Assembly: GCA_963854735.1 (NCBI GenBank)
Contig: OY978102.1
Location: 62,001-126,000, forward strand
Direction of reading: 5' to 3'
DNA: 64,000 nucleotides
DNA from: Marvania coccoides
Lineage: Eukaryota > Chlorophyta > Trebouxiophyceae > Chlorellales > Chlorellaceae
Both the position numbers and the translations under genes were made by a program. The notes under the pieces were generated by a model. The model searched no databases and had not been told where the DNA came from. It saw only the letters and a list, made by a program, of their open reading frames with translations. Of this stretch, positions 15,802 through 46,900 are shown piece after piece (the stretch's first letter is position 1; each line of letters opens with the position of its first letter).

Positions 15802-16185
15802 TTCAGTGATGAACAGCGTGTTTCTGATATTACGAACTAGTGTATAGGGGGAAATAATTTCAGGAATAAAGGGTTTAAACACAGTTTTTATTTTTTATTT
15901 TCCACCACGTCACACGATGAATGATCAGAGGCCGAGGCATGCGTTTAGTGTTATATTTATTATTTATAAACGCCGAATAAACTCGTCTTTGCATCACAGC
16001 CATTAACGACACAAAAGAAGAGGGATTTTATAAAATTGAAAAACCAAGACTTGTTGCAGATTTTCAAGAGAAGTTATGATTTTGCGCACTGTTTCGGCAT
16101 CGCCATTTGCATTCAAGCCCACTGGCATTGCGCCAAGCGGCTTCCGGGCACCCCTGCTCACTTCCCCAGCTCTCCGCCGGCAGCG
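15802..16185. other. Divergent upstream region
   Basis: Between the start codons of G6PD and the small membrane protein. Open frame continues upstream of the chosen start at 16186, so part of it could be translated, but the sequence there looks non-coding. Confidence 0.4.
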
Positions 16186-16848
16186 ATGGACGCAAAGAGT
16201 GCAGGTGGGCATCCATCTGCGCCTAATTCTCCCTCATTTTCACACCTAATTCAAATTTCATCAAATCTGCAGGCTTCCTCTATCGGAAACAGCGATGAAA
16301 GCACCGCGCCAGACCCCTCCCCCTCAAGCAGCGGCAACGGAGGGGGACTCAGAGCCGTCGCCGTTCCGGTGGGCTTCCGCTCCGCCGGGGCTGTCTTCAT
16401 ACTGGCAGGATTCCTCAAGATCCTCATCTTGTGCTTCCCCTACTCCCCCATGGCCGTCAGCATGTACCTGCAGGGGCGGGCAGATCTCGGCGTTGTGGCC
16501 GCCCTCAAGGCGATCCCCTTCGCGCTGGGCATCGCGGCGCTGGCCAAGACGCTGGTGGACCGCCAGCTGCACAAACGAAAGTGGTTTCACAGGGCGGTGT
16601 TGGTGTTGGGGCTCGGCGCTTTATTTTTCAGCAGATGGGCTCTTTACCGCCCTAGGCGCAGCCCTCTGGATCCCATGATGGCTGAACACAGACGGGTGAT
16701 GGTAGCCAGGATGCAGGAGGCGCGGGGGCGGGAGGGGAGAGAGGCTGCGTCGCGGGAGCAGCGGCACCGGGCGCTGCAGCAGCCGAGCGAGGAAGTGAGG
16801 AAGCAGCTGCAGGGCGAAGACCAGTCCAGGTTTTCTTCTAAGAAATGA
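16186..16848 (+). CDS. Small multi-span membrane protein, unknown
   Basis: Single exon, 220 residues. I do not recognise the family. After a Ser/Pro-rich N-terminus of about 60 residues come three hydrophobic stretches: around AGAVFILAGFLKILILCF, LGVVAALKAIPFALGIAAL and AVLVLGLGALFF. The C-terminal 75 residues are strongly charged (Arg, Glu, Gln rich), likely a coiled or disordered cytosolic tail. A possible GTGGGC donor and CTGCAG acceptor near 16205-16270 would shift the frame into a stop, so the unspliced reading is preferred. The open frame extends upstream to 16036, but the ATG at 16186 is the first followed by compositionally sensible sequence. The 3' half is duplicated at 21815-22459. 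Confidence 0.55.
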   Translation: MDAKSAGGHPSAPNSPSFSHLIQISSNLQASSIGNSDESTAPDPSPSSSGNGGGLRAVAVPVGFRSAGAVFILAGFLKILILCFPYSPMAVSMYLQGRADLGVVAALKAIPFALGIAALAKTLVDRQLHKRKWFHRAVLVLGLGALFFSRWALYRPRRSPLDPMMAEHRRVMVARMQEARGREGREAASREQRHRALQQPSEEVRKQLQGEDQSRFSSKK

Positions 16849-17255
16849 AACGGCGCTGCTGGCGTGATTTTTTTTACTTGCGTTAAATACTTTTAAGAAA
16901 GAAGAAGATGAAGAAATATCCACACTGGTGCTGGTGGCAGAAGGACAAAAAAAAAAGAGAACAAAGGGAGGAAGGCGTGGACGGAGCAGCTGAAGAGCAC
17001 CGCCAGAGACCTTTTTTTCTGTGGGAATGAAACATGTACACACCGTGGAGAGTGAGGTGGTAAATTCAAAATCAGGAGAATGAAAGGGCAAGGGGGGGGG
17101 GGGGGGGGAAAGAAAAGGAGGGGGAAACAAACAGTGTGGCGAGGAGGAAATGCGTGTCCTGTATTGTATATTATATGCATTTCCAGTGTATGTTAACAGT
17201 ATATGTTAACTACTAGTACACACGTCTTCCGAAAGAGAAACAAATAAAATGACGT
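16594..17255. repeat. Segmental duplication, copy 1 (source copy)
   Basis: Covers the last 85 codons of the small membrane protein and about 400 bp of downstream sequence. It matches 21815-22459 in the same orientation with only a handful of substitutions in the coding part. Differences are the length of a G run (17 at 17092-17108 here, 22 in the other copy) and a roughly 20-bp local tandem duplication near 17192-17215 that only this copy has. Confidence 0.9.
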
Positions 17256-17292: not shown

Positions 17293-20200
17293 TTAAAAGA
17301 GCTTACGCCAGCCACGGGCCCCCCGAGGAATGATCTCCGGGACGCTCTGCACCAGCCGCTCCCAGGTCGGGGCGTCCACCCCCAGGGCAATCATGCGCCC
17401 AATCAGCTGGGCGCGCTCGGGCACAGCCCAGGTGGCCCAGCACCTCACGAATTTGACGCGCTGCGTGTTCATGGGAAGGTTGGAGACGACAAACGGCATG
17501 AACTCAGCCCACACGGCCACGGGTGTGGTTTCCCAGATCTTGCGGATCATCTGCTTGGAGAGGTCGAGGTTCATGTGCTTGCGGCCGGCGCGCTGGAGGT
17601 GCTCCTCCTCCCCGCTGAGATGAGCCTCAAACTCGTCAATAAAAACAGGCACCTGCAAAATTGGGATGGTATAACTAGTTAATATCGTGACAGCGAATAT
17701 TGAATAAGAAGAGAATAAAGTGGGTGACGCCATAACTCAAGGAAAACTCGTTGGTTCCCCAGAATTTTTCAGCGGGCACTTTTCGGGAATAGTTAAAAGG
17801 AAAATTAAGAAGAACGGCAAAAGTTTTGAAAAACAAAAATTCCATACCTCGCTGGTGAGGATGTTCAGGGAGTCGGACACGTCCTTTGCGTCGGAGGCCT
17901 CGCCGGCCAGCGAGTCTTCCAGCGCCTCAATGGCGTCGCCCCATCGGGCCATCACCACATCGTGGTCGCTGTGCTCGGTATGCTGGCGAGAGCAAAGCCC
18001 GGGAACGTACGCCTCAAACTCACGGAATATGACGGCCTCCTCCTGCTCCGCGTGCCAGGCGTGCGCCAGGCGGTACCGTCGGAACTGCAGAGCAAAGTCA
18101 GAGAGGGCAGGTGGGTTGACGCAGGCAGGCCCAGAGGGGGCCAGCGCAGCGACAGCGACCTTGAGGCGGGCTCCCGCTGCGCGGAAGGCCTCGTGAGTGA
18201 GGATTTGCTGGGAGAGTGGGCCGTACTTGGCGTCAGCCACGAAAAACTGGCCCATGAAGAGGTTTTGAAGGGAGTGCAGGACACAGAGGAGCACAGTAAC
18301 CGAGGAAATGAACAGCCCAGCGTAGCCCATGCCCCTGGGGAGGTCTCCCTGCACAGCAGCAGCGTAGATGAGGGTGGCCAGCGTGAGGGCTTCCAGAGGG
18401 AAGGCGATGCCCCAAGAGGAGATGGGGTCGAATTTGATCTTTGAGGCGTGGGGGGTAAGGAAGAGCAGCGCTGCAGAAAAGAGTGGAAAACGCAATAATT
18501 GGAGATGAGTTGTAAATTCCCAGGCCCATCCTGATGCCGCTCGATCTCTCAGGGGCTCTCCGAGGTAAATTCTCGCCATCTGAGCACCGTTATTATTTTA
18601 ATATACTTACCCAATATCAGGCTCAGGGACAATGCGACGAAATAGAGGGTGCGGGAGATGAAGTCAAATGCCAACGCTGGCATGGCAGCCTCCAAGGCAG
18701 GCCTGTCGATGCCCAGCTCTTTGACTGGGGTGAAGGCGTTCAACACGACCTGAGCGACGCAGGCGACCGCAGGGGCGGCCACCCAGGTCCACTTCATGGG
18801 TCGGTTGCGGTCGTCGGGGTCATTGAAGACGATGGCCTTGTGGAACGTGATGATGAAGAGCGGGAGCGACAGCGCCGCTGCAAAAGAAAACCATAGGTAG
18901 GCCGCCTCAGTATAGCTGGGTTGCAGGAAGGGTGCCACGAGGGCGCACACGAAGCACGCCACGGGGGGCAGCATCCAGGCGGCGTTGATATGTTCCTGTG
19001 AGTGAGCATCGGTAATCCAAAGAGCAGCGATGTAAATGGCCAGGACCAAGGTGATGGGGGCACCAATCCAAAACAGCACTTTGGCCAGGGTGTCTGCGCC
19101 GTCAAAGCGGTCCACGGTGACAAAGGCGAGGAGGACGAAGCAGGCGGGGGGGACAATGAACGCGTTGGAGCGCAGAGGGCACATCCACTCCATGGCAACC
19201 TTATGGGGATGCATTTTGACCTTGGTGGCGTAGCTACATGAAAAAAAGCAACAGTTTTTGAGTCACAAATGGCTAAACGTTTCCTAATTAAGATGAGCCC
19301 CAGAATTTTTTTTACTTACAGCACAGCGAAGATGCCGTACACGATGACGGAGAAGATGGCCAGCACGTCTCCAGGGGCGTTGCTGATGCTCATGCCAGCG
19401 GCACCGCCCACCATGGGGTGGGCGGCCAGGCGCCAGACGGCAGCCAGGCCGCAAAACGCCAGCACGATGTTGAAGTGCAGAATCTTGGTGTGCTGCACAT
19501 GAAAAGAAATTTAAGAAATACTGGAGAAACGGCACGAGAATCAAGAAGAGATAATAATCAATTAATAATTAAATGCAATCTATGGAAAAAAATATGCTTG
19601 CCTTGATTACGTTGAAGCTCTGGCGGTCGTGGTCATTGCTCTTGACCTTGTAGCGGGGGTCAATAGAAGTTGGGGGCTTGTTGGGGTAGCTCAGGCGCAC
19701 GCGCTCCGTGTCAGGCAGTTCCATGCGCTTGGTGGCTTCCTCGTAGGCGTAGTGGAACTCGGGCTTGCTGGAGATGCCAATGGCGTAGATCTCTGGGGGG
19801 AGAAGCCTGAGTTGTACTAGGATGCCAAACATCCAGCAGCCCATGCAGAAGTCAAACGCCGCCTCCAAAAAGGCCAGCGCTCCGTAAACTGCAAGGAAGC
19901 AGGCGGGAATGATTTCCCTCGAGTCAAACCCGGAGGCGAAGAAGAAGGCGGTGGCGACTACAGACATGAAGAGGCCGCAGAAAGCTGCAAACTGTGCAGA
20001 GAAAAAAAAGGGGGAGGGGGGGCGGGGGTAAATAGTTTGTATAACTTTCCAAACCCGCAGGATGGGTCTGGGAATTTGCAATGCGCAGCGGTTGAGCGTT
20101 GCAATCTGAAAACCAGCGGAAATTAATAAACCGCATCGCGAGCTCAACGGATGAACTCAGTGACATACCTGTTTGGGCACTCCAGGGCGGAAAACAGGCT

Positions 20201-21062
20201 TTGTGAATGCAGTGATGCAGCGGGCCAACTGCGAGAGTGGGGAAGGGCCTGGACCATACAGCAGCCGCAGGAGGTTGTCCAGAGCCAGAGCCAGGATCAT
20301 ATAGTGCGCCCACGTCTCCTGGCGGAAGACGATGCCCAGTATGCAGATGGTAACGACCTGAACGGCAGTGCCTCGGACTACATTGGAATCCACGACTTCG
20401 GGAAACCAAAACACGGTGTAGGCGCGGGAGGTGGCGTCTCCCAGCGAAGGCTTGAAGTGCGCATCCACGAAAGTTTCATCGGGCTCGATGGGGGCATCGT
20501 GGGCTTCACCATTGTGAGCGTCAGCAGCTTTTGGGGGAGAGGTTTTTATTCTGGCAGAGGTGGCCAGGCCGTGGGTGGCTGCGGCGGCGTACAGCTTGGG
20601 GGCCAGCATGCCATCGGCCAGCAGCTTCTTGGTGGCGTCGCAGCCGCCGATGAACTCTCCGTTGATGAAAACGTAGGGGACGGTAGCCTGTTTGAGCTCT
20701 TCCTTGAGCGCGGTGTGAACGGCGACGCCGTCGGGCATGGCGTTGGTCCAGTAGATGGTGAGAGCGTCAGCCCCGCCTATAACGGCGGCAGCGTCGACAA
20801 GCGTCGCGATGGCCTCGATGGAGTAGGCGCAGGTTTGCCTGCCGACAACAGCGATGGGCAGGCTCATCAAAGCGTCGACCACGCCCTTTGCGCCGCTCTC
20901 TGCGGCAGTATAACAAGGGGCTTAACTTAGTTGTCATTCCGAAATTAAAAATCAAGTCGGGTTTGCGTTGAATGAAAATGGCAACGATTCGGAGCAGGTA
21001 CCTCGTAATATGGAACCCAGATCGGGCGGGGCCTTGCCGCCAGCCTCGACATCTTTTCCCAT
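17293..21062 (-). CDS. Glutaredoxin-DUF4395-TDT channel-hemerythrin fusion protein
   Basis: Seven exons in transcript order: 21062-21002, 20899-20169, 19991-19602, 19492-19320, 19233-18611, 18470-17848, 17652-17293, giving 986 residues. Domains in order: glutaredoxin fold (about 20-120) with a monothiol CAYS site, TVPYVFINGEFIGGCDAT glutathione-binding loop; DUF4395 membrane domain (about 190-320) with PGPSPLSQLARC and GVPKQFAAFCGLF; a TDT/TehA/SLAC1-type ten-helix anion or dicarboxylate channel (about 395-720) with YATKVKMHPHKVAMEW and SSWGIAFPLEALTLA; and a hemerythrin-like HHE domain (about 780-925) with LAHAWHAEQEE, HTEHSDHD and FEAHLSGEEEHL supplying di-iron ligands. Every junction keeps frame and joins family-conserved sequence across exons. 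The exon 3 donor is either GCAAGC or a GT six bases upstream. Function inferred: a membrane transporter gated or sensed by redox state, oxygen or iron. Confidence 0.85.
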
Positions 21063-21814: not shown

Positions 21815-22459
21815 GCGGTGGTGGTGTTGGGGCTCGGCGCTTTATTTTTCCGCAGATGGGCTCTGTACCGCCCCAGGCGCAGCCCTCTGGACCCCATGAT
21901 GGCTGAACACAGACGGGTGATGGTAGCCAGGATGCAGGAGGCGCGGGGGCGGGAGGGGAGAGAGGCTGCGTCGCGGGAGCAGCGGCACCGGGCGCTGCAG
22001 CAGCCGAGCGAGGAAGTGAGGAAGCAGCTGCAGGGCGAAGACCAGTCCAGGTTTTCTTCTAAGAAATGAAACGGCGCTGCTGGCGTGATTTTTTTTACTT
22101 GCGTTAAATACTTTTAAGAAAGAAGAAGATGAAGAAATATCCACACTGGTGCTGGTGGCAGAAGGACAAAAAAAAAAGAGAACAAAGGGAGGAAGGCGTG
22201 GACGGAGCAGCTGAAGAGCACCGCCAGAGACCTTTTTTTCTGTGGGAATGAAACATGTACACACCGTGGAGAGTGAGGTGGTAAATTCAAAATCAGGAGA
22301 ATGAAAGGGCAAGGGGGGGGGGGGGGGGGGGGGGAGAAAAGGAGGGGGAAACAAACAGTGTGGCGAGGAGGAAATGCGTGTCCTGTATTGTATATTATAT
22401 GCATTTCCAGTGTATGTTGGTACACGCGCCTTCCGAAAGAGAAACAAATATAATGACGT
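21815..22459. repeat. Segmental duplication, copy 2
   Basis: Near-identical to 16594-17255, same orientation. It begins inside the coding sequence of the membrane protein and ends about 390 bp past its stop, so it is a DNA segment, not a spliced transcript copy with a poly-A tail. Contains a 22-G run at 22313-22334. Confidence 0.9.
21816..22069 (+). pseudogene. 5'-truncated copy of the small membrane protein
   Basis: The last 84 codons plus stop of the gene at 16186-16848, with a few substitutions (for example Ser to Arg after ALFF). There is no ATG at the 5' edge and no upstream exon that would supply one, so it is unlikely to be expressed as a protein unless fused to something upstream. 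Source gene lies 5.2 kb away. Confidence 0.8.
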
Positions 22460-34666: not shown

Positions 34667-35805
34667 TTAGAAATCCGAGCGCAGGTGGCCCATCATGGCC
34701 CCCTGCGCTGCCTTGAACCCTGCTGCGTACGCTGCGTTCCTCAGTGCATTCAGCTCCATCACAACGTCAGCACGCAGTTTCCGCAGCACGTCGCCGTCCA
34801 CCCCACTCAGCTCAACCCCCGTCGCGACAGCAGCTTTACCCACCACGATGTCAGTCACAGCATACACGTCACTCGCAGCACGCGCAGCAGCAGCAGCTGC
34901 AGCCGCCTTTGCCGCTTTCTCCGCCGCCTTCTTGTCCTCCCCACTCTTCTTCCCGCCCTTGCCAGCTGTTGCTGCTGCTGCTGCCTTAGGGGCCGCCGCT
35001 ACTGCTGCAGCTCGCGCTTCTGCCGCCCCTTCCTCACCTTCTTTCGAGACAATCGGCTTTGCTGCGTCCGCAATGTGCTTCAGATCGGGCGGGTTGTCGC
35101 GGTCGATCTTGGGGTCTGCTTCCAGGTCCACCCAGTGCGCCTCCCTCTTCAAATCCGCCAAAAAAGTCTCAAGCCCCACCGGGGACATCGCCAGCGAGGC
35201 AGTATTCTGCAGAGGATGCACGTAAAACGTGGCCTGTGCCTTCAACTTTCCATCCAGCAGCAGCACGACGTCGGTGGCAGAGGGATGCGCCACTGCCAGA
35301 GGGGTAACGCTGCCCAGAGCAACTCCTAAAACAGAGGGAAGAAGCTCGTCTGGGGCCATTCGCACGCCGCCTTTGCCGGCCCCCAGCCGCGCAGACAGCA
35401 CCTTGAGGTCGATTGTCGTGTCCGGGAGCGCTGAGACGATGTACAGCCGCCCCCTTTTATCCTGAAGACCGCAGAGCGGTGGCAGGGGAGAGATGGTCAG
35501 GAGAGGGACATTTTTAGCCGAGGAGAAGGAATGGAAGGGCATACCTTGAGAAACAGGTTCTTGGTGACGGATCCAGGTCTGTCTTTGAGTGCTGCTGCCT
35601 GCAGAGGAGAAAAACAAAATAGATGTGAAGAGAAAACAAAATGCAAAAAGGTTATCATTATTTTTTCCACGATGCGATTAAAATAACAAGTGCAGCGCAT
35701 TTATACGAGTGGCCTGACCTGCTCTTCGACAGTCATCGCTGCACTGTGGGTAGCGATCTCACAAGGCAGACCGAGCCGCTGAAATTGTGAGAGCAGCGCA
35801 TCCAT
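34667..35805 (-). CDS. YbaK/ProX-type prolyl-tRNA editing domain protein
   Basis: Three exons in transcript order, 35805-35719, 35598-35545, 35461-34667, giving 311 residues. Exons 1-2 and the start of 3 give the YbaK fold: THSAAMTVEEQ, then KNLFLKDKRGRLYIVSALPD, KVLSARLGAGKGGVRMAP, SVTPLAVAHPSATDVVLLLD and FYVHPLQNTASLAMSP. The K of KNLFLK and the conserved H-P-L-x-N-T are typical of free-standing prolyl-tRNA deacylases (PRORSD1), which remove alanine from mischarged tRNA-Pro. Odd feature: an Ala/Lys-rich linker (about 190-250) and about 60 further residues, starting DVYAVTDIVVGKAAVATG and ending in an Arg/Lys helix. These are not part of the normal domain, whose usual length is about 170. 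The extra end may bind tRNA. Start chosen at the first ATG that gives the fold. Confidence 0.85.
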
Positions 35806-41573: not shown

Positions 41574-43911
41574 TCATATCGCAAGATCCGCAAGCTCGCC
41601 CCAGCTACGCCCAGTCTGCATCCGCACTCTCAGCGGCACAGTCAGCTCGACCACCCCCTCCATGGCCTCTCGCACAGCAGCAGCCACCCTGGGCAGCTCA
41701 CTGGCCGCCACCTCGAACACAAGCTCGTCATGGATTTCCTGCAGGAAGAGATTAAAAAAAAAAAAAAAATGAGAATGAGAATTACTACATGCAGGTATCA
41801 ACGCCCAATCAATTTTGAGTTTAATAGCACTAAACATATATACTTGCCATCACCAGCCTTCCCACTGCTCTGCCCTCGCTGTCAGTCACTCCCGCAACCG
41901 CCTTTGCAGCAGCCACCATGGCAGACTTCGCCACGTCGGCAGCGCTACCCTGGCACACGGTGTTGACCGCCTGGCGCTCCATGCGAGCTCGAACTTCCCG
42001 GCCCAGCGGCGCCGTCCCTGCCCTCTCCCCAGGCGAAGGACCCAGCTTGCGCACGCGCCCCTTGAGCGTGCGCACCTCTCCGGTCTGTCTCACCGACTCA
42101 TGCACGTCTTTTATCCACCGTTTCACCCCTGGGATGGTTTTAAGAAAGGCGGAGGCCATGGCGGCCGCCTCGTTCTCAACGCCTGCGCCAGTCAGCCCCA
42201 GATCGCGCGCCAAGCTGGCGCAGCCCTGCACATAAAAAGTGAGGCAGATATACGGTGAGAATACTTAACTGATTCATAAATAAGGCATCAAGTATGAAGC
42301 AGAAAAGAAAATAAAACAATAAAATGCTGCTAATTAGCAGTCCGTTATAACGGATATCTCTCCTGCTTCAAAAAATAGAAATATAACTTGCAAACCTTGC
42401 CATAGATGATGCCGTACACCATCTTCTTTACGCGATCGCGCTGCTGGCGGCTCACCACCTGCGGCGGCGTCTTCAGCCACACCCCCGCCAGGCCAACAAA
42501 TGGGTCGGCAGCACCATCGCCCAGCATGCCCATCAGCGTAGGGTCCCCACTCATGTGCGCCAACAAGCGCAGCTCCAGCTGACGGTAGTCGGCAGATAGC
42601 AGCACCCGGCCGGGGGGGGCGATGAACGCTCGTCTAAGGTTGTGCGCGACCGGCTGCCGACTCTTCTCATCTGCCATGTACTGCGCGGGCTTGGGCACAG
42701 TATGAAGATTGGAAAAATCCATGGTGAGCCGCCCCGTCCCCGCGGTGGTGTGGTGGTAGTTGCCAGCGATGACGCACTGCTGGCGCTGGTGCCGTGTACC
42801 GGGCGGCGTCCTTTCTTGCACCGCTGCGCCCAGTTCCTCGCAGTACTGTAGAACCTTGGACAGGGTGCGGAACTCGGAGATCCAGCGTGGCATGGGCACG
42901 TGCGGGTAGGCGGCAGCCAGCTCCTCCAGGACCTCAGCCCGCGTTGAGAAGCTGCCCCCTCGCACAGGCACGGCCGAGGGCGGCGGAGCTAGGCCCAGGC
43001 GCTTGAACAGAACCTCCGAACAGTCGAAAGGGTTGGTGAGGTCGAACGTACCGTCGGCTGCGGCCGCGGTGAGCCGCGTCAGCTCCTCGATGCGGCGTCG
43101 GAGCCCTGGTGCTTCATCAGCAAAGACCGAGGGGTCTACCTCCACACCAGAGGTCTCTAACGCCACCAACAGCGGAATCAGAGGCATCTCTGTGTGGGTC
43201 AGCGCCTCCAGCGCCCCGCGTGCCTGCAGGTCCGGCCGCAGCCGCTGCTCAAAGGCGGCCAGCGAGGCGGCGGCATGGCGGCACGTGGTCACCTGCTTTT
43301 GAGTGGCCTGATGTGGGCCCGACTGCAGCTTGGACAGCTTGGCGGCGGCCACGGGGCCCAAACAGTGCGCTGCGAGGGTCTCCGCGGTGAAGGGCTGCGC
43401 GGAAGAGGAGGATTTTCCTCGACTGGCGTTGCTGGCCCCGCCGGCCGCCGCCACAGCCACCAGGTGCGACTGCTGCGCCAGCGGGGTGGCGTCAGACAGC
43501 CGGGAGTCTTCGGGGGTGAGCACGAACGCGGCCACGCGGACGTCCACCAGTGGTGGCGCCAGGACCAGCGGCACTGCCGGCGAGGCAAAAGCTCCTCTTG
43601 CTGTCGAAAAAGAGGCGTTGGACTCCCGCCAGGAGGCGGCCACCCAGGGAGCGCCCAGGGCAGCAGGGCCGTGCGCGTTTGCCAGCGCACTCATCTGCCC
43701 CCTCAGGTCAAACGTGACTTTCTCCAGCAAAGTGCTAGAAAACAGCCTCGCCAGCTCCACTTCCAGCTCGGCCCTGCCACCATAGCCGCCATTTAATACA
43801 GCAGCAGTGGGGGCAGGGAGGCACACGTAGGCCGCCTGCCCAGGCCGCCAGGCGAGCGCCACACCGTGCAGCGTCGGCAAAGCCGCAGTTGCGCTGCTCT
43901 GCTGCTGCTGT

Positions 43912-43942
<31 letters not shown>

Positions 43943-46900
43943 GGAGAGGAGAGAGGACCAGCTGCTTCGCCGTTCTGGGAGCGGCTGGGACCACCAGCCC
44001 TGGGGGTAGAGCGGGCTTGGAGGTCGCCAAGATTGGCGCGTCAATGTCGAGCTGGAAAGCGTAGCGGGCGTAGCTCCCTTCCAGCAGCGTCCTCAGCGCA
44101 GCCACCTGGCGAGCCCGAGTGACCAGAACGACGCCCTCCTGACCTCCAAACTCCCACTCGTCGGGCGCCAGGCAGGGCTCGGCCGCGGCTACTGGCTTGG
44201 GGGCAGCAGCAGCTGGGTTGTTGGCGGGTAGCGAAGATTTTGGCATTGCTAAAGTCGAAGGCGCCACGTGGTGCTTCTGAGGTGGTAATACGCCGGTGGA
44301 GATGGAGCGGGGCGGCGCTGGCGCTGATTTTGACGTGGCAACCAGGGGCTTGGAAGAGGCCCCAGATACTTCAGTCGTTGCAGCAGGGCAGGGCAGCAAA
44401 GAGGAAGCGGGAACAGCAGCAGAAGGAGGAGCGGTGCCATTGCCATTCGCAGCGGCAGCGGCAGCCGCAGCAACCACGCCATAATCCAGCGTTGGCTGAT
44501 ACTCCAGCTGCCGCTGCTGTTGCTGGTCCCAGGGGAGGCGGCTGGTAGCTGCCGCGGCGGTGGGCAGAGGAGCATTCGTGCACAGCCCGTATGGATCATC
44601 CACTGCCCTCCCGCCCCCTTCCTCCCCAATTCCCGCAGCCTCTTTCCCCGCGCCAGCCAGGTTGAGCGCCGCATCTGCCGCCTCCCGCAGCGTCCCGGCC
44701 CGCCGCGACAGCAGCTCCTTAGCGCCCCGCACGATGCGCCCCGCCTGCATCTTCAGGCTGGCGCGCTGCTCCGCGGAGAGCTGCTGGCTGGTGCGCCCCG
44801 CCCGCAGCGCCTCCAGCACCCGCTCCGAGTCTTCCAAAGCTGCGATGATCTCAGGCGCCCTTAGCCCCGCTTTGTACAGCAGCCGGGCGGTGTAGGCCTG
44901 AACGAAGGGGATCTCCAGCAGGCACAGCACCTCTGGGCGCACTCCGTGAAGCACCCGCGCCTGGAACTTGGTGATCAGCACCTCAAGGTCGTGGTAGCCC
45001 ATGCGCTCGCAGAAGGCCGCCACCATGCCTGCATGGCGACAGGCGCGCTCCTGCAGGTCCTGCATCACCGAGCGCTCCATGCCGTACTTCTGCTTGACCT
45101 CCTCCGGCGATTTTTCGTCCAGCAGGTCGGACAGAATGAGGGCGGCCCAAAACCGACGAGAGATGCGCTCCTGTATTTTATTTTAGGGTAAGAACAAGCA
45201 GAGGGAGTTAGAAAACTAAATATTCAACCACAACATCAAGGTGTAAATATGCAGTACAGATTGGTCTTAAGAAGCGACATGAACTATTTTAACAACTACT
45301 CGCAGGTTCGCTCTGTTGGCCTCCACCCATGGATGCCCCCCTCAGGGCCGTCCCCATGGCCTGCGCCTGCACGTACGCCCTATCCAGCCCCACCAGCGAC
45401 GCCACGTTCGCCTCGGGCCGCTCTAGCGTGGGGATGTAGTGATAAAGCCGCCGCCAGTCCGGCAGAATGTCCAACGTGGCTGGCACGCACAAGTAAGCCA
45501 GGTGCAGCTCGGTGGTGAGCACAAACGACTCTCGCGCGCGCTTCAGGTCGGTGCGGATGCTCAAGCAAATCTCGGGGGGCAGCCCTGAGGCCATGGCGGC
45601 TCTGCCGAAGGGCGTGGGTAGGTATGTCTGGGACGGTTTGTCCCAGTACACGAAGCCGTGGTCCTCCTGGCCCAGCCACTTGAGGGCAGCAATGGTGGCG
45701 GAGGAGACGATCTTGTAGTCGTTGGTGACCGACAGCAGCGTGCACCTGGGAGAAAAAAAGGGCAATACAAGGGGGAGATGGAGGTGAGAACAAATAAATA
45801 CAATTTTACACTGGGCATATGAAAAAAGTTAAGCCATTTTATTGGAAAGTACTGTAGAACACCATGTACATGGAAAAAAATATATATATATATATATATA
45901 TGTATTGAGGACAGTAAAATATTTAAATTGACTCACTTGATGTAGCGATCTATGTCCTCAGGCGAGGCCACCGCCCCCGAGGCCACCACCTCCAGCATCG
46001 CGCGCTTCATCCCGCGCTTGTCCTCAGTCAGGCAGCTCCTGATGGGCTCCGGCGCCGCCCGCATCAGCTCCTCCAGCCGGTTTACCGAGACATCCCTCAC
46101 CGTCACTAGGTAGGCTTCCCCGCTGTCGTCAATCCCAGCACGCCCAGCACGCCCCACCATCTGCCGGTACTTGGTCGCGTCCAGCAGGTTCTGAGGCCTG
46201 CCCACGTATGGGTGCCGAAAAATGACCCGCCGCGCCGGCAGGTTCACGCCAGCTGCCAGCGTGGATGTTGCGCACAGCACAGACACCGCCCCGCACCGGA
46301 ACGCAGCCTCCACCAGCTCCCGCTCCTCAGAGGCCAGACCCGCGTGGTGAAACGCCACGCCGCGGGCCACAAAGTCCGGCAGCTCGGAAGAGCTGTTGTG
46401 AGTGGTGTTATGGGCGGCCAGAGCGCTCACAAGGGCTGCCCTGGTGACCGGACGGGGCAGAATGGCGGCCAGCGCGCTGTCGGGCGGGGGGGTCCACTGC
46501 CGCGGCCGCTCATGGACGTCGATGAGGTCCGCCAGGAGCCTGGCGGTGGCGGCGCAGGCGGCCCGGGTTGCGCAGAACACCAGCACTGAGTGGCCACTTG
46601 CCACCGTCTCTGAAGCTAGCCAGGCCACCCCGTTGGGGTCGCGCCTGGCCCAGTCGTCGGAGGGCGCGATGGTGCGCACCGTGGCGCCGTGTTCGTCCCG
46701 AATGTCGGTGCCCACTTTGAGGAAGTGGTGCAGCGGGACGGGGCGATAGTCAGTGACAAATAACTGGAAGAAAGAAATGAAGAAAGAAAGAATTAAATAG
46801 CGTGTGAAACATTCTGTACGAAATGTGGGTGAGGGTGAAAGAGTTTAATACGCATTCGAGACAGGAAGTGAAGATGAAATAACCCTATTTAAAATTTGAA

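Follow-up and report, generated by a model that had tools for sequence, protein, structure and literature searches.

Does a single gene of the green alga Marvania coccoides join a glutaredoxin, the domain DUF4395, a SLAC1/TDT-type channel and a hemerythrin (HHE) domain on one chain and, if so, what might such a protein do? The question arises from an earlier note on a window of 64,000 nucleotides (assembly GCA_963854735.1, contig OY978102.1, positions 62,001 to 126,000 of the forward strand), which had read seven exons at 17293..21062 as one protein of this kind and suggested a transporter gated by redox, oxygen or iron. Coordinates below are those of the window, and the gene and all its features lie on the minus strand.

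One gene and one chain

Splicing of the exons 21062-21002, 20899-20169, 19991-19602, 19492-19320, 19233-18611, 18470-17848 and 17652-17293 gave an intact frame of 986 amino acids with full-length relatives, and the seven exons therefore do read as one in-frame protein. Pfam and profile matches fall along this chain in the proposed order, glutaredoxin, DUF4395, SLAC1/TDT and hemerythrin, followed by a conserved tail of about 100 residues, and the same order recurs in relatives. DUF4395 (PF14340, residues 190-323) scored 75.2 bits against a cut-off of 24.5 and contains the FCxGC motif, the channel (PF03595) scored 108.6 bits against 27.9, and hemerythrin (PF01814) 29.3 bits against 25.3. The Pfam search thus bore out these three families, whereas the glutaredoxin (about residues 34-123, 20592..20861, wholly in exon 2) reached 16.1 bits, below the PF00462 cut-off of 22.9. 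Judged from sequence comparison the glutaredoxin is nevertheless real, because the window protein matches NCBIfam GRX_euk at E 3.9e-10 (39.8 bits, below the curated cut-off of 87.25) and a solved glutaredoxin at E 6.9e-8, and because 7/7 relatives scanned pass the PF00462 cut-off. Its hallmarks are all present, namely the N-terminal active cysteine C44 in CAYS, the cis-proline P95 in TVP and C107 in GGCD. We also scored each segment with profiles made from group C, the relatives outside the green group, against 400 shuffled proteins (200 for each of the two paralogues of this genome, the second of which is described below). The window protein reached 58.7 bits for the glutaredoxin (best shuffled score 3.3), 138.2 for DUF4395 (6.3), 179.2 for the channel (10.0), 104.2 for the hemerythrin domain (1.2) and 97.3 for the tail (15.7).

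Exon guessing or assembly could in principle have merged neighbouring genes, an explanation to which we give almost no weight. Exon 2 (20169..20899, residues 21-264) encodes the glutaredoxin and the start of DUF4395 in one uninterrupted frame, so that this fusion is independent of splicing, and exon 6 (17848..18470, residues 660-867), likewise a single open frame, begins in the final portion of the channel and ends within the hemerythrin domain. In the paralogue a single exon links the end of DUF4395, past its C-x-x-C, to the channel. The order moreover recurs in independent genomes and in transcript-derived proteins; P0056, P0059 and P0064, complete transcript open reading frames (ORFs) from MMETSP, contain all four Pfam domains, and one transcript therefore carries all parts in these relatives. 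A merger would be favoured by a direct repeat, 95% identical, on both sides of the gene, which indicates that the locus was rearranged at some time. With the domain junctions lying inside exons and the order identical elsewhere, the statement that the fusion is no merging artefact holds. The copies of the repeat, about 650 bases long, lie at 16594-17255 and 21815-22459; the first includes the 3' portion of an open frame on the plus strand (15970-16848, without a Pfam match) whose 5' portion is absent from the second, which suggests a local duplication.

The junction between exons 2 and 3 falls inside DUF4395, between PKQ and FAAFCG as had been claimed, and divides the domain into a first part (residues 190-264, 20169..20393) and a second part (residues 265-323, 19815..19991) that holds C269 and the FCMGC pair C313/C316. 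Five introns are GT-AG and one, 3' of exon 3 (19493..19601, after 19602), is GC-AG. An alternative GT donor 9 bases upstream of this site is also in frame and removes three residues; the GC-AG donor was retained because relatives possess residues at those three positions. Exon 1 (21002..21062, residues 1-20) encodes an acidic N-terminus, MGKDVEAGG, and several relatives have a similar start of the form D-V/I-E-x-G.

Gate, cysteines and iron ligands in the two paralogues

A six-frame search for DUF4395 in the 22.46 Mb genome (15 contigs) matched, as lower bounds, the window gene and one gene on contig C4. The latter has nine exons and encodes 932 residues in the same four-part order, with a CPFC glutaredoxin and 30% identity to the window protein. 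At least 26 database proteins group with it, and Pfam hemerythrin is listed in none of them; we call this group type B, and that of the window protein type A. Micractinium conductrix (P0007, P0037) and 'Nannochloris desiccata' (P0001, P0022) each have both types, and type B formed one clade in our trees (25/27 sequences in a quick tree, 9/9 in a 34-row tree).

The channel domain (residues 398-725, exons 4-6, 18274..19483) was placed by Pfam and by alignment with AtSLAC1, and the ten-helix SLAC1/TehA fold was matched by the relative P0001. The gate phenylalanine, F683, aligns with F450 of AtSLAC1 and is present in 77/77 covered sequences. The window protein stays below the NCBIfam cut-offs for TIGR00816 'tdt' (69.5 vs 237.25 bits) and for the TehA equivalog (53.1 vs 342 bits). 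Equally constant is the C-x-x-C pair C313/C316 of DUF4395 (77/77 covered sequences). DUF4395 has four long helices and, with helix ends set by hand, six K/R in the loops on one side and one on the other. This asymmetry of charge suggests a cytosolic location for the ends of the domain, the PKQFA loop and the FCxGC pair. Position 269, close to where the third long helix begins, is Cys in 18/18 covered type-A and 30/31 covered group-C sequences, and this position is Val or Ile in 27/27 of type B.

The first glutaredoxin cysteine is found in 16/16 covered rows of type A, 26/26 of group C and 14/17 of type B. At the place of the second, Ser occurs in 10 of the 16 covered type-A rows, the window protein among them, and Cys in 17/17 of type B and 24/26 of group C. 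The monothiol character claimed for the glutaredoxin is therefore correct for the window protein with its CAYS, and it is not general, since 47/59 covered sequences have the second cysteine.

The hemerythrin domain (residues 752-887, 17593..18195) has, by within-family alignment, 6/6 of the YtfE-type di-iron ligands (four His and two Glu; ligand list from PMC9052748): H752, H799, E803, H826, H878 and E882. All six are intact in 19/19 type-A rows and in 29/34 group-C rows, that is in 29/29 that cover the region; the other five fall short of it, and in one of these a stray K aligns with the first site. In the window gene this domain is interrupted by an intron, and a six-frame PF01814 search of the whole genome listed matches on contigs C10 and C3 and not the window gene, which counts against the assignment. 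The frame on C10 (L012:1448-5185, minus strand) has 1246 residues with hemerythrin stretches, a CHY zinc finger, a RING and a zinc ribbon, which we take to be the domain set of the plant BTS/HRZ iron-sensing ubiquitin ligases; the one on C3 (L011:1130-2011, plus strand) has 294 residues and a hemerythrin domain alone. The conserved C-terminal tail (about residues 888-986, 17296..17592) contains residues invariant across relatives; in the window protein it matches no Pfam family. In the tails of twelve relatives only Hemerythrin recurred, and four other Pfam families each hit a single relative, with E values of 0.0046 or higher.

The bundle of the C4 protein is still recognisable (34.0 bits, group-C profile). 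In type B, H752 is replaced by Q, H799 by Y and E803 by K, each in 26/26 covered sequences; the position of H826 is N in 22 and D in 2, His being kept in 2, H878 is kept in 1/26 and E882 in 0/26. A Glu one place past E882 is kept in 26/26, so that one carboxylate may remain. By this alignment the type-B clade is one that has lost the YtfE-type ligand set while keeping the channel. C269 disappeared together with the iron site on one branch; this is a single event and hence a lead only. Among 79 fetched proteins 68 had at least one glutaredoxin hit and three had two, all of type B: P0037 (Micractinium) and P0031 and P0044 (metagenome). The second glutaredoxin (864-951, 871-957 and 870-956 in the three proteins) lies after the bundle portion that aligns as far as the third ligand region and ahead of the fourth part's motif, upstream of the tail. 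Profile matches to the fourth part alone were not significant (E 0.15 to 2.9), and its YDY-EDH-RPV motif is discernible by eye in P0031 and P0037. In one type-B branch a thiol domain has thus come to occupy the former iron bundle, a placement that hints at the C-terminal module being a sensor seat.

Occurrence, ancestry and known counterparts

This genome is not alone in having the four-part order, which is shared by other green algae and by diatoms. A 'Nannochloris desiccata' relative has it with 63% identity over the whole length, and it is also found in Micractinium (by taxonomy look-up a trebouxiophyte), Chlamydomonas incerta, Gonium, Edaphochlamys and Tetrabaena (a chlorophycean), and in the diatoms Seminavis, Fistulifera and Helicotheca. 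Database names for these proteins are partial, such as C4-dicarboxylate ABC transporter or Glutaredoxin-C6. One database protein of 844 residues, P0020, has DUF4395 at its end (residues 681-811) and a long remainder in which Pfam detected nothing else at E 0.01.

Protein trees were built as a quick tree, from which 13 of 80 rows (<780 residues) were left out, and as a detailed tree of 34 rows. In the latter the green members separated from group C with branch support 100/97, the window protein grouped with Nannochloris sequences (92/84), and trebouxiophyte type A, volvocine A and type B were each fully supported. The order among these three was left undecided by support (type A with volvocine, 46/21; type A with type B, p-AU 0.413), and the quick tree joined volvocine with type B, with long branches flagged. 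A further tree comprised 30 TDT domains, 20 of them fused; its seven bacterial rows were selected by profile, and L093 and L095, which the profile missed, were dropped. The fused, plant and bacterial domains each formed one clade (fused clade 99/98), which fits a single fusion. Being unrooted and built from these three sets, the tree does not show whether plant channels are the nearest kin.

The bundle has two HxxxE motifs and two further histidines as in YtfE, and weak profile matches to YtfE, ScdA and FBXL5. These are soluble proteins, and unlike them the window protein has no Pfam match to ScdA_N, F-box or leucine-rich repeats. An identity with RIC (YtfE/ScdA) was rejected, as there is no ScdA_N (DUF542) match in the window protein. 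Another likeness is to GSTH, a thioredoxin-fold protein fused to hemerythrin and followed by about 100 unannotated residues (PMC4138524). GSTH has about 500 residues, lacks a clear targeting sequence, is nucleo-cytoplasmic in moss and carries a glutathione S-transferase (GST) where the algal protein has a glutaredoxin; a membrane part is not mentioned in the available portion of that source. This identity was rejected as well, because Pfam found no GST match in the window protein. A study of 2012 (PMC3509319) placed TDT proteins of C. reinhardtii and of the Chlorella type in two groups, closer to the malate permease Mae1, and its main text nowhere mentions glutaredoxin or hemerythrin; these groups are possibly the channel part of the fused family.

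We found no description of a combination of glutaredoxin, DUF4395, SLAC1/TDT and hemerythrin in the open-licence literature, nor is one given in the available parts of PMC7539508, PMC7730656 and PMC13389267. This agrees with the earlier note, which knew of none; databases hold the proteins under partial names only. New here are the intact ligands in every covering sequence of type A and group C, the paralogue clade without the YtfE-type ligand set, three members of which have a second glutaredoxin in the degenerate bundle, and the gate phenylalanine and C-x-x-C pair kept in all covered sequences.

Elsewhere in the window a long polymerase-theta-like frame on the minus strand (42348-45182) combines DNA polymerase A with POLQ helical domains, a helicase piece lies at 45936-46844, and a minus-strand open frame at 34670-35677 contains an aminoacyl-tRNA editing domain.

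A candidate channel with its own sensors

We put at about even chances that these proteins are anion channels whose gate is operated from the cytosol by thiol exchange and, in type A, also by a di-iron site that reads oxygen, iron or nitric oxide (NO). In plant SLAC1/SLAH channels the ends are phosphorylated plugs (PMC10645844), whereas the ends of the algal protein are the glutaredoxin with DUF4395 and the di-iron bundle. The termini of SLAC-like channels face the cytosol. The glutaredoxin, the cysteine pair of DUF4395 and the iron bundle would all lie on this side of the membrane, the location of the plug in plant SLAC1. The glutaredoxin, with glutathione, would reduce or glutathionylate the DUF4395 cysteines beside the pore and so shift the gate, and the C-terminal bundle would bind oxygen, NO or iron and, by way of the conserved tail, take the part that the N- and C-terminal plug has in SLAC1. 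In type B, thiol redox would be the only signal read. The gating by redox, oxygen or iron that had been suggested is still something we infer, and it is better founded through the conserved ligands, gate phenylalanine and C-x-x-C and through the paralogues without iron ligands.

Bacterial DUF4395 was sampled as the 80 loci nearest one actinobacterial sequence, from 399, a narrow set that is not representative of all DUF4395. FCxGC and PK(R/Q)FA are conserved in these proteins, and a second CxxC after the first is present in 80/80 loci, against 0/68 fused rows in which the first pair was located. Within this narrow sample, the fused glutaredoxin may stand in for the second bacterial CxxC.

Several results weigh against the proposed self-gated channel. 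Profiles for TDT, glutaredoxin, HHE and the tail had no match among 759 ORFs called by length at the 80 bacterial loci, a calling that missed the DUF4395 gene itself in 29/80, nor among 5574 frames of at least 70 residues at the same loci; the TDT profile has little power for remote bacterial TDT, giving 11.1 and 3.8 bits to two genes whose Pfam scores are 262 and 217.5. Composition-based calling covered 79/80 loci (without L042), and in the 147 immediate neighbours scanned with Pfam the commonest families were Glycos_transf_2 (21) and Ala_racemase_N (20); TDT, glutaredoxin and hemerythrin are not among the 25 commonest of 123 neighbour families. TDT was over its cut-off in only 1/16 bacterial genomes bearing DUF4395. 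The bacterial neighbourhoods thus show no link to channels. Moreover, conservation of the gate phenylalanine does not in itself establish conductance, and the first glutaredoxin cysteine is replaced in 3/17 covered type-B rows, for which the listed alignment suggests mispredicted exons. The predicted structure is of middling confidence (pLDDT 73, pTM 0.55), so that its domain placement could not be used. Finally, solved structures gave no significant match to the DUF4395 model, and it is therefore only the conserved C-x-x-C that argues for a thiol-switch role of this domain.

Three other functions were considered. The fused domains could chemically process the cargo of a transporter, for instance with a YtfE-like site turning nitrite into NO or binding NO, glutaredoxin and glutathione supplying electrons and TDT moving nitrite or nitrate. 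The ligand types do match YtfE, an NO-generating nitrite reductase whose conserved cysteine pair is oriented to the di-iron site (PMC9052748), and the bundle matches ScdA at E 5e-4 and YtfE at E 0.1-0.2. FBXL5, however, matches equally well (E 4.8e-4), Pfam found no ScdA_N domain, and type B has channel and glutaredoxin without iron ligands, which makes the channel independent of that chemistry; we consider substrate handling unlikely. The protein could instead be a membrane-anchored iron or iron-sulfur device in which glutaredoxin and bundle store, sense or pass on iron while the channel counterbalances charge or serves as an anchor. The structural matches of the glutaredoxin include holo GrxC1 (2e7p), presumably its 2Fe-2S form, and by sequence the bundle matches FBXL5 and ScdA best. 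A mere anchor would have no need of the gate phenylalanine, which is fully conserved and which type B keeps without an iron site, and we hold such a device to be rather improbable.

Ssu1 is a TDT exporter of sulfite-type oxyanions, and an Ssu1-like export of sulfite or a related sulfur oxyanion, with glutaredoxin and DUF4395 as the thiol system, would agree with membership of the TDT family. One bacterial TDT gene of the tree set, on a Thioclava plasmid, also has a gene for a TauE/SafE sulfite exporter next downstream (L100:1034-1106, plus strand). Given that the TIGR00816 score falls short of its cut-off as noted above, and that this neighbour belongs to one of seven bacterial genes fetched and involves no fusion, we give this function little credence.

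Returning to the self-gated anion channel, we propose tentatively, at somewhat less than even chances, a channel class across green algae, diatoms and perhaps other eukaryotes whose own thiol and di-iron sensors would turn redox state and oxygen, NO or iron into anion flux, with an iron-free green sister class that has a second glutaredoxin in one branch. This class could be the algal counterpart of the guard-cell channels of land plants. If so, the switches of the channel would be a built-in thiol enzyme and a metal site, compared with phosphorylation in plant SLAC1. For DUF4395, a family without known function, the fusion provides a physical partner, and types A and B, natural variants of which one has the di-iron ligands and the other has lost them, offer a clean comparison of the role of the iron site.
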